Below are positions 7,824 to 54,689 of a DNA stretch of 64,000 nt, in pieces; position 1 is the first letter of the stretch, and the number at the start of each line of letters is the position of its first letter. Below the pieces are notes generated by a model. The model had not been told where the DNA came from. It saw only the letters and a list, made by a program, of their open reading frames with translations, and did not search any database. Position numbers and translations under genes: made by a program. Origin of the DNA: Hydractinia symbiolongicarpus (Eukaryota > Cnidaria > Hydrozoa > Anthoathecata > Hydractiniidae); NCBI RefSeq assembly GCF_029227915.1, contig NC_079884.1, positions 20,832,001 through 20,896,000 of the forward strand, read 5' to 3'.

Positions 7824-8551
7824 AGTCCTGAAAATATTGCTTATTACAAAAAGAGAGTGGGGAAAATATAACAATGAATTTGGTTTATGGATTCACAAAC
7901 ATGTGGTACCGAAATGTTATCATCAAGCACAAACGGTAACAACCGTCTGAAAATAACTGTGAGATTTACGTTTCCGATTTAGCAGTATGCGTTTATTCTT
8001 AATCGTCACCTATGTGAGATATCATGGTCTGTCTTAACGATAAAATCTGGCTCCATTTGAGTTATTTCAATGTTTTATCTATATATTTGGACATAATATG
8101 AAAGTTACGTCATATCGTTACTCTTATTGTATTGACTCTCATAAGAGTACTCTTCTCACTAATTATATAGCAATAAGGCGCTGGGGTTAGCGAGATACTG
8201 TAAAGATGTAATGTCTTACGTGTAGTGGTATTCGTCTAACAGACCATAAATTGGCTTTATTTCAAACTCGGCTTTTTTAACCATATAATATAACCTCGAT
8301 CCCAGAGCCGTTGTCTCTGTATATAAGGCAGCTAGATAAGCGTAGCGCCTGTGAGAGACAAAAAGGTGAGGTTGATGGGAATAGGAACATTTCTAACAAA
8401 CGTAATGGATGTTGTGTGCAAATGAGCGACATCTAGACCGAAAAGTCACATTCATATAGGAGATAGAAAATCCACCATCAGTCGCGCAATTGGAACGGAA
8501 GAAAAAAAAGTAAATGACGCAATACAGGAAAAACAATTGTTGGGTTTGATG

Positions 8552-8598
8552 AACCTCGTCCACGGGGCTTTTTGCAAAAAAGCCCTGAAAACGAGGTT
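8552..8598. repeat. Small hairpin repeat with AACCTCGT termini
   Basis: Outer arms AACCTCGT / ACGAGGTT (8552-8559, 8591-8598) enclose an inner 9-bp stem GGGCTTTTT / AAAAAGCCC. The terminal motif resembles the start of the terminal inverted repeat of the 29-kb element (CAACCTCG). Confidence 0.55.
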
Positions 8599-27639: not shown

Positions 27640-27895
27640 AGTTAAGAACAGGGCAGAAAATACATAATCAGGGCAACATAATCAGGACAGGCCGGCTTAT
27701 TACTCCAAAAATATTATTTGGCAAATATAAAAGGAACATAATCAGGGCAGGCCAGTTTATATACGACAGTGTAATATTATTGCTCACTTATTATAGAACG
27801 AACATAATCAGGGCAGGCCGACTTACGTATGACAGTCAAATATTATTCAAGACTTATAGAACAAATATAATCAGGGCCCACCGCTTTTATATCAT
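27640..27895. repeat. Tandem subrepeat array around ACATAATCAGGGCAGGCC
   Basis: Four to five degenerate copies of a unit of roughly 55-65 bp, each containing ACATAATCAGGGCAGGCC followed by TTAT-type sequence and ACTTATAGAAC. The same unit appears inverted near 54.1-54.2 kb and directly near 54.66 kb, so it belongs to a dispersed repeat family. Confidence 0.75.
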
Positions 27896-27899
27896 TTGT

Positions 27900-28320
27900 C
27901 ATCACTTCTGACAAGCAAATAGCCCTGGTAGCAAAGTTGTTGTTGTTCTCAAATGAAACGAAATTTCATGGCAAATACTAAATTTTGGGATTCGCAAGTT
28001 TAATAACTTTTCACCAAACTTTCACCAAACCTGCAAAAAGAATAATTTAGGTTCCGTGAAATTTAGTTACTTCAAAGTATATTATGTTGAAATGTATTTA
28101 CTACAGGAGTAGTTTATACCAAGAATTACATCGATACTTTTTTCTTTCGCCATGCCTAGTTTTTAGGGGTGTATCTTCCAAAGAATGTTTAATTCATAAA
28201 AGTTTGAAGAAAATGACAATCACAGCCTGCCTGGCCCAGCCATTGTATCAGTGTTCATAATCCAGTCACCACAACATAACCAGTGCAAAAAAAGGCCGTT
28301 TTCGCAATCTGGGCAGAACA
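27900..28320 (+). repeat. Dispersed repeat copy (inverted partner at 52.8-53.3 kb)
   Basis: Sequence from AAATAGCCCTGGTAGCAAAG through GATTCGCAAG..TTAATAACTTTTCACCAAAC to ACAGCCTGCCTGGC is clearly similar to the reverse complement of 52,795-53,260. Together with the subrepeat array immediately left of it, this makes one composite repeat of at least 650 bp. No coding potential is seen. Confidence 0.75.
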
Positions 28321-28962: not shown

Positions 28963-29037
28963 CGACCAGAACATTTACTAAACTCCTAAACAAGGACTGT
29001 TTAGCGTACTTTGAGTACTACGGTATATGGCTCTGTT

Positions 29038-29112
29038 CAACCTCGAACCCAGGGCCTGTAGCGTTTTTTGATATGAGGATGAAACGCGTACGAGGCCCTG
29101 GTACAACAGACT
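29038..29112 (+). repeat. Left terminal inverted repeat (75 bp)
   Basis: Starts CAACCTCGAACCCAGGGCCT and is identical to the complement of 32102-32176. Within it, CCAGGGCCT (29049-29057) pairs with AGGCCCTGG (29093-29101) and GCGTTT with AAACGC, so each terminus can itself fold into a hairpin. Confidence 0.95.
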
Positions 29113-29789
29113 TACTCAACCAATGAGAATGCGTATACGGCTTTTTTAAATTATGCTAAAAAGATAATAAATGCAGAAGTATTTTTTGCAAGCACAGCAT
29201 TTTATAGTAACAACAAATATGGCGATGAGCATTACGCAGATTTTTTGGTAACTTGTTTATGAAGAAAATATTTATTAATTCACGTTATTTTTGACTTTCC
29301 TTGCATCGTTACAAATTTATCGGTGCTGTTCAAAATTTTTAAACATTATTTTTGTTGTTTCACTGATGGGAAAAAGGCAGCTGACAAGTCAAATGGAATG
29401 GTGCGATGAACATCTGTCCTGCTAACGAAAGTAGCAGGTACTTCTCACCTTTTGTTGGGACACAATACTTATATTTTTAAAAAAACTGCAATTTAATTTT
29501 TGTTTTCACATGCTAAAAAGTAAACAGAAACTTGGTATAGATGCAACTTTTTTAGTATGTATGCTGGCTAACTAGCTAGATACTGTTAGCTAGCTTGAAG
29601 ATGCACAACAATGACAAGTAATCTTTTTTATGTCACAATTCAAGGGATATTATTTGACAATTTTTTGGGATAAGAATACTAGCTAGAGCATTAAAAAATA
29701 TTTTAGGAAATAAAGTATAGCTAGCTGTATAAATAAAAGGAAATATATATATACAAAAAATAACAACTAATATAAATCTTTGTTTTTAG

Positions 29790-30193
29790 GCAAAGGGAAA
29801 GAAAATATCACACCACATAAAGTTTATAGTGGATGTGATAAAGTGTGTAGACTGTGTGCTGAGACTGACTTAAAACGATTTAGTCAAATTTTTGGAAATA
29901 TTGGAACATCAAAACAACTTCAAGAGAAAATACAAGGCACTGTGGGTATCACAATTGTGCAAACTGATAACATAAATGATATAATCTGTCGTAAATGTGA
30001 AAGAAAAATCGAAAACTTTGTACAATTTAAGATTTTGTGTCGGAATGCACAGATAAGCTTTCGGAAAAATTGCAGTGTGAAAAGGGTAATATCGTCACCA
30101 GAACAAAAATGTACCACAAAGAAACTCAGAGGTAAAATATACATTCTTTCTTACCTATGTTTTAAAAATTACATATATCTTTTTTATATATAA
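29790..30193 (+). CDS. ZAD-type zinc-finger domain ORF (cargo of the 29-kb element)
   Basis: An exon beginning after tttgtttttag at 29789 reads through a zinc-associated (ZAD-like) domain: VCRLC, then LKRFSQIFGNIGT, GITIVQTDNINDI, and IICRKCERKIENFVQFKILC. The CxxC...CxxC pattern and spacing match the ZAD fold, which binds zinc and mediates dimerisation in DNA-associated proteins. No start codon lies in frame within the exon, so an upstream exon is needed; I did not find a convincing one. A possible donor AGAG|gtaaaa occurs at 30131/30132. If it is not used, the frame ends at TAA 30191-30193, overlapping the stop of the opposite helicase ORF. Function beyond zinc/DNA association is unknown. 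Confidence 0.65.
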
Positions 30194-31768
30194 TACTTTA
30201 ATACTTTACGAAGGCATTGTGTCGTAGTACAAAAATTCACCATATGTTCATCAACTTTATTTTGTTTTAAACGCCTACTGCTGATATCATGCCCGGTATA
30301 GTACAATCTTGCCAATGCTTTTTGCCCTCTTGGACCAGCCCTTCCAAATTGCTGCATATAGTCTTCGATGGTACTTGGTGGACTTATATGGAAAATTTGT
30401 TCGATATAGGGTGCATGAACACCCATACCAAGCGCAGAAGTTGCTATTATAACGCGAATGTTTGAAACTTCTTTTGCAACTTCAAGGAGAATTTCGTTTT
30501 TCATTGACTTTGTTTGTGGTGCGTGAAATTGCACAATTAAACAATTGCTAGGGTTTGTTATGTTTTCAACATACATGTGTTCCTTTAATACATTTTTTAT
30601 TAACTTGTATATATACCCACAAAACCTCAATCCACAATATATAATAGTTTGAGGAAAACTTTTCTTTAGTGATTTTAGCTCCTTTGCAAGTGGCAAGATG
30701 ATATTTTCAATACCTTCTTCACCAACTTTTCTCTTTTCTTTGCACATGTATACATTTTTTCTGTTTGGATTAACAGATATTATTGTTGGGGTTTTCATTC
30801 CAAGTATATGTTTTATTTTAGCCAGTGTTTTTTCTGTTGCGGTAGCTGTAAGTGCGATAAAAGGTACCTCTCTAAAAAAAGCTCGCATTGCTCCCAAGTT
30901 TTCAAATTCTTTGCGAAATTCTTTTCCCCTTAAAGATAAAGAAATATATATATATTTTAGGATTAACATTTTGTTAGTTATATATAATAATTTTGTTAGT
31001 TATATATAATTTTATATCTGTTTTATATTATATATATACATTTTTGTTATTCAGTTGTTGTACAGATATTCTTGTCTTTGTTATTTTATTAGCATTTTGC
31101 AATTAACATTACATTATTGCATATTTCCTTATTAGAGAAATTATTCTTGTATATATATATATATACATATATATATAATATTTAACTTTTTTAAAGTTGT
31201 AGCTATATATATACCTATATAAATAAAGTAGTACTTACCAGGTGTCCAAGCAGTGAGCCTCATCAATGACACAAGCTTTGACATTTTTTTGATAAATTTT
31301 CGTTTTCATCAAAGTTCTTCCTCTCTCACTCAATATAGCCTCTGGATGGCAAAATAGGAAGTCACAATGACCATCCAATACAAATGATGGTAAGACATCT
31401 TCTGTTTTATCACTCAGACAGATATCCTCAAATAACGTCTGTACAGCATTCTCCTCAAAATTTAAGTCACGTAGGATGTAGCAAGTCATTCCTACTTTTT
31501 TCAGAAAATTCACTTGATCTTCCATAATTGCGTTTAAACAAGTGATTACAATGACAATTGAAGATTTTTCGTCTTTGTTTCTCATGACATCTGGTAACAG
31601 TTGAAAAATTAAAGATTTCCCATATACTGTTGGAAACACCCCAATGACATCCTGTCCTCTTACTATGGACTCCAAGCACTTGACTTGTTTGGGTTTAAAG
31701 TTAAGGTCAGGAAAATTTCGACACTCCAGAGATCTTTGAATTTTCTCCAAAATTGCGAAGGGTTCCAT
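30184..31768 (-). CDS. RecQ-like superfamily 2 helicase, truncated (cargo of the 29-kb element)
   Basis: Exons 31239-31768 and 30184-30928 join in phase inside a Trp codon, giving 424 residues. Helicase motifs in order: motif 0-like LNFKPKQVKCLESI, motif I PTVYGKS (46-52), Ia IVITCLNAIMEDQV, DEAH in VIDEAHCLDTWG (170-173), III ALTATAT (202-208), V ATSALGMGV (339-347) and VI QQFGRAG (369-375). RecQ enzymes unwind DNA 3'->5' with ATP. Oddities: the Walker-A glycine of TGxGKS is Val (codon GTA, one base from GGA), which may impair ATPase activity; and the protein ends at ..CTTTQCLRKVLKYYI, just inside the zinc-binding subdomain, so the complete RQC and HRDC regions are absent. The whole gene lies inside a transposable element. 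It is either a degenerating captured host gene or element machinery. Confidence 0.82.
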
Positions 31769-32101
31769 CGCATCATCTGTTATTTTTGACGTAGATGTAA
31801 AATTTAGAAATTCTATTCTATAATATTTAAAATAAGAATAATAATAAACATTTAAAGTGGCTATCCCAGAAAATCACAAAAACCTATAGTTAGTGGATTG
31901 TTTCCACTATACAATACTATATGTATCATACACCACAAAATGACTAGAAAGCCATTAAGGGTTGTATTTACTCTGTAATTTTACAGTGTAGCTATAGGTA
32001 GCGCTGGCTAAAGTACCCTCCCGCCACTAGAACACCATCTTCGATCGAAAACGTCACGCATACATTACGTTTCTCTGCATGCTTAATTTTGGGCGAATTT
32101 C

Positions 32102-32176
32102 AGTCTGTTGTACCAGGGCCTCGTACGCGTTTCATCCTCATATCAAAAAACGCTACAGGCCCTGGGTTCGAGGTTG
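32102..32176 (-). repeat. Right terminal inverted repeat (75 bp)
   Basis: Exact complement of the left repeat; its outer end reads GGGTTCGAGGTTG and abuts the 9-bp duplication. Confidence 0.95.
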
Positions 32177-32230
32177 GGCTCTGTTAAATTCGATTTGAGG
32201 AAAGTTGTGTAAAGTACTCTGGCACTCTTG

Positions 32231-52794: not shown

Positions 52795-53260
52795 GTTTTT
52801 TGCTCTGATTACAGTGACCAGATTATGAACCTTAATAAAATGGCTGGCCAGGCAGGCTGTGTATAACATTTTCCTCAAACTTTTGTGAATGAAACATTGA
52901 CTAGGCTTGGTAAAAAAAAAGTCTTAACACAAATTTTCTTTGCACGATAAAACACCAAACTAAGCAGAGCGAAAAAAGTCTTCCTCTTGTAATACATTTC
53001 AACATAAGATACTTTGAAGTATATAACTAAATTTCACTAAACTAGATTTTACGGATGAGTTGACTCACATTTATTTTTTGCAGGAATTTAATTCTGGGGA
53101 TGACCTAAATTATTATTTTCTTGCAGGAATTCAGTTTGGTGAAAAGTTATTAAAGTTGCGAATCACAAAATTGAGTTTCCACAAAATTTTGTTTTACTTG
53201 AGAACAATAAAAACTTTGCAACCAGGGCTATTTTCTTGTCAGATGTTATGAAAAATGATT
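52795..53260 (-). repeat. Dispersed repeat copy, inverted relative to 27.9-28.3 kb
   Basis: Reverse complement of this block aligns with 27,900-28,320, sharing ACAGCCTGCCTGGC, GATTCGCAA, TTTAATAACTTTTCACCAAA and AATAGCCCTGG. From 51,571 to 52,794 I see only AT-rich sequence with a few CTGAAAA-type echoes. Confidence 0.75.
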
Positions 53261-53308
53261 TGAAAGCTGGTTGTCCCCGATTATGTACATTCTATAAGTA
53301 AGGGATAA

Positions 53309-54127
53309 CCAGGGAATTCCACGAAGAAAACAACATCGCACGCGTAAATCTATTTGAGAAAATTTGCACGTGCGTTTTTTCGATTTTTTTCCTGGTTAAT
53401 TTCACTCTTATCAGTCCCGTGAGTGTTCTTTAAGTAGTGTAAAAGTGCTAAATATATTAACAAAACACCTTGGTTCGTTGTAGGAAGTAATTTATAATAG
53501 GTAAATAACATAATAATTAAATTTAAACAGTGGACGAAGAGACGCTGCTGACACGTGCCACACGTTGCACTTACTCCAATGGTCTGCCATTTTGTTTATA
53601 GTGCTATTTATCCCCAACCTTGTTCCCAGGGTTATATTTTCTCCGTAGGTTATCTATTATCTATAAAAATGGTAAAAATGGGAGTCATTTTTTATTTATT
53701 GAGGTTTCAAGTTTTGTTTGTTAGCTTTTGGGAGACGGCTTGTTTGGAATAGTTTAAAGTTGTTTTTAGATTTAAAGTTGTTCTTTAGATTTTTTAAAAT
53801 AAAGCGTTTAATTAACATTTTTAAAAAAATTTAATTTAACCACAAGTGGTTATAAACTGTTTTTAATGATACAGTTGAAGCTGTCAATGTAAAACGATTG
53901 ATTTTTGGAATACAGTTTTAATAGTTAAATGCTTAAAGCATAGCCTTAAGCGGCGACATTAACTACACTGTAGAAAATCAACTTTTATAATTCCTTCGTT
54001 AATTTTTTTAATTTTACGCGAGTAAAGAGCGTAATTAGCGCGTGCGATGAATCGCACGCCTGAATGGCTGTTGCACGTGTGTGGGCGCGTGCGCGTGCCA
54101 TCGCACGCGTCTCATGGAATTCCCTGG
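53309..54127. mobile_element. 819-bp MITE with CCAGGGAATTCCA ends
   Basis: CCAGGGAATTCCAcG at the left end is mirrored by the complement of the right end, CCAGGGAATTCCAtG, and both flanks carry ATAA (53305-53308 and 54128-54131). Subterminal GC-rich blocks contain GCACGCG and a palindrome GCGTGCGATGAATCGCACGC. It interrupts the AATCAGGGC subrepeat family. No ORF resembles a transposase. Confidence 0.7.
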
Positions 54128-54159
54128 ATAACGTAAAAGTGTTGCACATAAACTGGCCT

Positions 54160-54689
54160 GCTCTGATTATTTTCGTTCTATAAGTGAGAGATAATATAAA
54201 AGTGCTGCACATATAAGGGGCCATCGACAAACAGTTTTTGTCTCTGTAACGGCAAATTGGCTGTTAGGGATGGAGGGGGTAATGCATAATTCGTTAAAAA
54301 TATAAGAGGAATTTCACATTCTTACCTTTTTTATTTCTTTTAGAGAAAATGAAAAAAATTCAAGAAATTAGAAAATGTTTCCACAGTAAAAATTTGCCAT
54401 AATCTAAAATTGGTTATTAAAAAAATGTATCTTGTGTTCGTATAAGTCTCCACAAAGATTGTTCTGTAAGGTACGGAGTGGGGGACAACATTCTATTTAA
54501 AGGCAAATTTGCCGTTAACAGAGACGAAAACTTACGTAGGGGAAATAGGCTTGCCTTAAGGGGCAAGGGGGGGGGGACCGAGTCGCGGCCAATTTGCCGT
54601 TACAGAGACAAAACTGTTTGTCGATGGCCCCTTATATGTGCAACATGTCTATATTATTTCTCACTTATAGAACGAACATAATCGGAGCA
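54160..54689. repeat. Large inverted repeat with arms of about 102 bp
   Basis: Left arm 54160-54261 and right arm 54588-54689 pair almost completely. The inner parts share GGGGCCATCGACAAACAG and CTCTGTAACGGCAAATTGGC; the outer parts are AATCAGAGCA-type subrepeats facing opposite ways. The spacer of about 326 bp includes a 13-G run near 54,570. A nested MITE or a foldback structure would both fit. Confidence 0.8.

Follow-up and report, generated by a model that had tools for sequence, protein, structure and literature searches.

The window analysed here, a 64,000-nucleotide stretch of the Hydractinia symbiolongicarpus genome (contig NC_079884.1, C10:20832001-20896000), contains a DNA transposon at positions 29038-32176. 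The element is bounded at both ends by 75-bp terminal inverted repeats (TIRs), carries GGCTCTGTT on each flank as a target-site duplication (TSD), and encloses a ZAD exon and a RecQ-type helicase gene on opposite strands. Its features are listed below, where L010 denotes the longer parent copy described later.

29029..29037, unstranded: left TSD copy GGCTCTGTT, 9 bp, read from the sequence
29038..29112, + strand: left TIR, 75 bp, beginning CAACCTCGAACCCAGGGCC, from sequence comparison
29790..30131, + strand: ZAD (zf-AD) exon, PF07776, bounded by a splice-like AG and GT in the sequence
30193..30199, unstranded: deletion junction with filler ATACTTT, about 3.1 kb of the parent gone, from alignment to L010
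30200..30928, - strand: helicase exon 2 (Helicase_C), with the C-terminus and zinc-binding end cut off by the deletion
30929..31238, - strand: helicase intron, 310 bp, GT-AG
31239..31768, - strand: helicase exon 1 from its ATG, DEAD domain with DEAH motif
32102..32176, - strand: right TIR, 75 bp, identical with the left TIR, from sequence comparison
32177..32185, unstranded: right TSD copy GGCTCTGTT, 9 bp, read from the sequence

The two TIRs are 100% complementary over 75 bp, with base 76 as the first mismatch, and the repeat contains an internal imperfect palindrome or hairpin (DNA fold -16.5 kcal/mol, z -5.4). When 9-mers were drawn from fetched DNA, 56 of 2,000,000 random pairs matched, about 3 per 100,000. 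The identical repeats and flanking duplication had already been described correctly in a first-pass annotation. Of the 3,139-bp interior that it reported as encoding only ZAD and helicase, the gene content stood and the length did not: 3,139 bp is the size between the duplications with TIRs included, and the space between the TIRs measures 2,989 bp. Elsewhere in the window, a TIR-like end with three mismatches (TAACCTCGATCCCAGAGCC) lies at 8291-8309, with related short motifs at 8552 and 8592; a full partner was not found.

A Pfam scan of the element's three open reading frames (ORFs) returned the ZAD domain on the + strand (PF07776, E = 6e-10) and two helicase matches over two exons on the - strand (PF00270, E = 5.6e-13; PF00271, E = 2.5e-9). 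No transposase family was found in that scan, as the first-pass annotation had noted. The best protein match of the helicase is an NCBI protein from H. symbiolongicarpus, at 99%. In the window copy, the Walker A glycine is replaced by valine, and the glycine is kept in 13/13 other fetched copies having that stretch, a count that takes in L017, whose adjacent residue differs. The motif VI arginine is replaced by proline and is retained in all ten other copies that have the stretch. Because both motifs are altered and the C-terminus is lost, the window helicase is, to judge from its sequence, very likely dead.

The missing portion is found in L010 (C2:14844171-14850501), which has the same TIRs and measures 6,231 bp between TIR ends. 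The window copy aligns with the first 1,155 bp of L010 at 99.1% and with the last 1,977 bp at 99.5%; the intervening 3.1 kb or so comprises a 608-aa DUF6589 ORF (PF20231, E = 3e-40 in L010) and the end of the helicase. Within L010, the ZAD exon precedes the DUF6589 exon on the same strand, and both converge on a full-length RecQ-type helicase gene with its zinc-binding part present; no start codon was found upstream of this ZAD exon. In the window copy the ZAD exon is orphaned, its transposase exon being gone. The internal deletion and its filler are invisible from the window sequence alone and were revealed by alignment to L010. The Mutator-like mobiliser proposed earlier thus gives way to a DUF6589 transposase encoded by the parent. 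A longer relative adding a transposase does exist, as had been anticipated, but it is not a Mutator-like element (MULE), and no MULE Pfam family appeared up to E = 1 in the five L010 ORFs scanned. The suggestion of a two-gene element holds insofar as ZAD and helicase are genes of the element, and fails as a transposase-less system.

A 1-kb piece of the transposase matches L010, L011, L013, and L009 at about 100%, with the next match at 78% (best 40 of 64 candidates). None of the four copies (L010, L011/12, L013/14, L009) looks intact in both its genes. The middle transposase exon of L010 contains a frame break. L011/12 has open transposase exons, but its helicase is broken and it contains nested DNA and a duplication. 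Insertions occur in both L013/14 and L009, together with a transposase frame break in the former and a small deletion inside the transposase in the latter. As candidates for longer parents, L009, L011/12, and L013/14 were rejected, being near-full copies that carry nested insertions. The NCBI protein P0001 was likewise rejected as the product of a full-length copy, since it matches the L018/L023 deletion type. Nested within the L009 copy, at L009:5904-8429, is an 841-aa reverse-transcriptase ORF (PF00078), whose end we take to be GIY-YIG-like and which is perhaps Penelope-like. At L013:5168-6442, a 424-aa DDE_Tnp_4 transposase, presumably Harbinger-like, is nested in the transposase gene of that copy.

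The 480.9-Mb H. symbiolongicarpus genome was searched with the left end, and scoring covered the best 40 of the 434 first-look candidates; these match the left TIR at 96-100% identity. Fourteen family copies, the window element counted, have both ends, and 13 of them are flanked by duplications without a mismatch; that of L019 measures 10 bp and the other 12 measure 9 bp. In L009, the duplication differs at 2/9 positions. This number leaves out L024, L029, L030, and L032, which have one full-length end in the stretch, as well as L028 (second end partial, flanks unmatched), L025/L026, L027, and L031. In a sister subfamily, L031 has a perfect 9-bp TSD and L027 matches at 8/9 bases. Mean divergence of the end regions is about 0.5% (11 and 13 copies), which points to a young family. 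The earlier description of a complete and recent DNA transposon is borne out by the ends, the TSDs, and this low divergence among copies.

Two observations concern the arrangement of individual copies. At L025 and L026 (C6:32831181, C6:16650298), two outward-facing sister-subfamily ends surround a stretch of about 3.3 kb, and the flanks suggest that one locus is the other in reverse, far away on the same contig. At L017:51-4876, one left end and its left flank are present twice, 4.75 kb apart, reflecting either duplication in tandem or an artefact of the assembly.

Internal deletion is a recurrent event in the family. Ten deleted copies, the window copy included, show eight distinct breakpoint pairs. 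In the coordinates of the 6,231-bp parent, these lie at 1152/4255 in the window copy, 1595/4122 in L015 and L019, and 958/4036 in L018 and L023, with one pair each in L016, L017, L020, L021, and L022. Junctions display either 1-2 bp of microhomology or 1-10 bp of filler, and the 7-bp ATACTTT filler of the window copy repeats adjacent sequence. This pattern is the outcome expected of interrupted gap repair after excision, by which the deletions may have arisen. L015 and L019 share a junction and have different target duplications, and so do L018 and L023; because the same junction occurs at two sites with different duplications, deleted copies moved after the deletion. The whole transposase core is kept in 0/10 deleted copies, and therefore this movement presumably occurred in trans, with the deleted copies using protein supplied by fuller ones. 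The ZAD exon, at least in large part, is kept in nine of the ten, the window copy among them, with L022 as the exception. Ds, dSpm, and KP are internally deleted derivatives of the same kind, with ends intact, interior gone, varied breakpoints, and continued mobility. The deleted copies described here share these traits, although the transposase superfamily differs.

ZAD and DUF6589 occur together in single proteins, namely P0122 (922 aa), P0168, and P0205 from H. symbiolongicarpus and P0197 from Clytia, in a search whose scoring was limited to the 7,997 candidates with the most words in common. When the ZAD exon itself served as protein query, no match reached E <= 0.001 within the length range searched. 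The predicted DUF6589 model is confident (predicted local distance difference test, pLDDT, 84.7; predicted template modelling score, pTM, 0.88). In a second-look structural alignment, its first 14 rows are all DDE enzymes built on an RNase H-like core: Hermes, Transib, ISCth4, and RAG1. Plain Foldseek with the same model gave no match at E <= 0.001, and a DUF6589 profile search of the PDB gave none up to E = 1. Because plain Foldseek found nothing significant, the modelling counts as support, not proof, for a DDE transposase. PF20231 has 101 matches in the H. symbiolongicarpus genome and none in 14 control genomes.

The pairing of this putative transposase with a helicase extends beyond one family. 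Eight more DUF6589 loci, picked from matches to the 1-kb transposase piece, were fetched. A helicase relative adjoins the transposase at five of them (L034, L035, L037, L038, L039) and was not found beside it at the other three (L036, L040, L041). L034 and L035 are members of the same family. Both ends lie in the stretch at L034, L037, and L038, with inverted-repeat arms of 79-85 bp that start with CAACCTCG, CAAACTCG, or CAATCTCG and with 9-bp duplications GTAAATCCC, GATGTTGAA, and AGAAGCCCT. The helicase of L037 shares 48-54% identity with P0001. That of L034 matches P0005, which is 43% identical to the window helicase, and that of L038 shares 50-53% identity with P0005. In another eukaryote, the DUF6589 protein P0192 and the helicase P0019 have close gene numbers, 16282 and 16284. 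In a 36-row helicase tree, with long branches and rooted only for drawing, the 14 closest sequences cluster together (100/99), separate from the RecQ rows of bacteria and plants. Sources of this group include cnidarians and one mollusc, and the next to join are five further rows, of which two are coral proteins. Because the gene pair recurs across families and the helicases group together, the helicase is a long-standing part of this kind of transposon and not a recently caught fragment.

The AcademH lineage of the Academ superfamily reportedly goes back to Kojima (2020, Mob DNA 11:15). We file the element there on the basis of its helicase, TIRs, and duplication length, the last as described in a later paper. 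The accessible portion of that paper (PMC10045372) gives 9 or 10 bp duplications for AcademH and 3 or 4 bp for AcademX, a difference tied to the presence of a helicase or a nuclease. Encoded helicase, TIRs, and duplications of 9 or 10 bp are all found here, and the fit rests on the helicase together with the 9-and-10-bp pattern. A transposase paired with a helicase in an animal host further agrees with AcademH. The first-pass annotation had set aside a helicase-bearing Academ lineage on account of its ends or duplications, but the AcademH lengths given in the later paper are those seen here. The DUF6589 protein of the parent, RNase H-like in the model comparison, is a candidate Academ-type DDE transposase, and its core is deleted from the window copy. 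The parent transposase also goes with a ZAD domain, which may set it apart from AcademH. AcademH is a type already described in animals and fungi. Among the best-ranked literature matches, which did not reach the original AcademH description, no report was found of RecQ transposons in Hydractinia or of ZAD in Academ transposases; the ZAD-transposase fusion is the one detail that we could not trace to print. In the accessible part of the Hydractinia genome paper, about 60% of repeats are unclassified, and no mention of Academ was found in it.

Taken together, the window copy is in all probability a non-autonomous derivative, shortened by internal deletion, of a cut-and-paste transposon from a young AcademH-type family, whose 6.2-kb parent carries two converging genes for a ZAD-DUF6589 transposase and a RecQ-type helicase. 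In the parent, the transposase is read from the left end and the helicase from the right. The ZAD part may bind DNA at the element ends, and the DUF6589 core would act as the DDE enzyme that cuts and joins them. The helicase might open DNA during strand transfer or repair, and may have to do with the 9-bp stagger.

An animal Pack-MULE, in which a Mutator-type transposase encoded elsewhere would mobilise TIRs that captured two host gene pieces, is very improbable. Long TIRs and 9-bp duplications do fit Mutator-like elements (PMC6446971, group table in the accessible part), but a copy lying between identical TIRs itself encodes a DUF6589 transposase, and no MULE family was found among the L010 ORFs. 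Moreover, the pair of ZAD-DUF6589 and helicase recurs in three other both-ended families (L034, L037, L038), which speaks against the gene capture once suspected for this element, and the 14 closest helicases form one group. The word helicase is absent from the main text of the same MULE survey (PMC6446971). Read alone, the window copy shows just ZAD and helicase, as would suit a two-gene transposon moving by these proteins without any DDE enzyme. Such an element is hardly conceivable once L010 and the other fuller copies, which show it to be wrong, are taken into account. The ZAD exon belongs with the transposase (L010; P0122, P0168, P0197, P0205), and the helicase that would have to act has lost its C-terminus and altered its Walker A and VI motifs. 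Helitrons lack both TIRs and target-site duplications and encode Rep with a Pif1-type helicase, whereas the window element has TIRs and a TSD and its helicase is RecQ-type.

Kolobok transposons duplicate TTAA. KolobokH resembles the window family in placing a RecQ helicase beside a DDE transposase, but the transposase superfamily is another one and the duplications here are 9-10 bp long and are not TTAA. The accessible part of PMC9587614 confirms the RecQ helicase of KolobokH and places KolobokH in fungi only, with RecQ also present in one Kolobok family from a rhodophyte; a Kolobok-type origin is accordingly highly unlikely. The truncated copies might instead serve as repressors, the lone ZAD exon yielding a DNA-binding competitor for the ends. 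KP acts in this manner as a P element repressor. Retention of the ZAD exon in 9/10 deleted copies, with the whole core in none, would agree with such a role. However, neither a start codon nor a transcript that would give a short ZAD protein was found, and the positions of the deletions are enough to explain ZAD retention, so that we consider repression unlikely. The AcademH-type deletion derivative remains the preferred reading.

The same genome holds a divergent DUF6589 family that is a candidate AcademX. L042 (C2:27293500-27301400) has 366-bp inverted-repeat arms and two ORFs of 514 and 1,063 aa, the longer matching DUF6589 at E = 4.5e-10. Duplications are 3 bp in 4/4 both-ended copies (ATA, CTA, TAA, and TAT, of which TAT also fits 5 bp); a fifth copy, L050, lacks the right end. 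No helicase relative was found in L042 (best E = 0.077). AcademX carries a nuclease in place of the helicase and makes duplications of 3 or 4 bp, in contrast to the 9-10 bp of the window family. Motifs in the C-terminal part of the L042 protein lead us to take it for an XPG-type nuclease, an assignment that no tool confirmed. Its Pfam matches include no XPG family, a PDB sequence search with this part gave one unrelated match (E = 0.64), and its single-sequence model was useless (pLDDT 35). The XPG_I profile has four places in the genome, none near a PF20231 match.

Two further repeats lie in the window. At 54159-54689, inverted repeats of about 100 bp form two adjoining pairs with a spacing of 326-371 bp, likely a miniature inverted-repeat transposable element of a different family; a flanking duplication was not evident at its edges. 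Several inverted matches (36-92 bp, 73-93%) between 27711-28236 and 52846-54238 mark a dispersed repeat in opposite orientation. Scans of viral contigs with P0001, the helicase alignment, and an 18-base TIR piece found no relative in a set that possibly excludes the records of this genome itself.

Read alone, the element is a classification trap, since it resembles a Pack-MULE or a transposase-less system. From its fuller relatives, an animal transposase is seen to go with a ZAD domain. The copies fetched from this model cnidarian represent a young family, with fuller members and eight types of deletion among them, and are useful for studying the role of the helicase in transposition, and equally for asking why helicase presence goes with 9-bp and not 3-bp duplications. 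We tentatively entertain, as a possibility somewhat short of probable, a broader picture in which one genome hosts young Academ families with DUF6589, a helicase, and 9-bp duplications alongside a sister family with 3-bp duplications and no detected helicase, the helicase type bearing an N-terminal ZAD and still producing deletion derivatives that move in trans. If this is true, the accessory enzyme may set the integration stagger.
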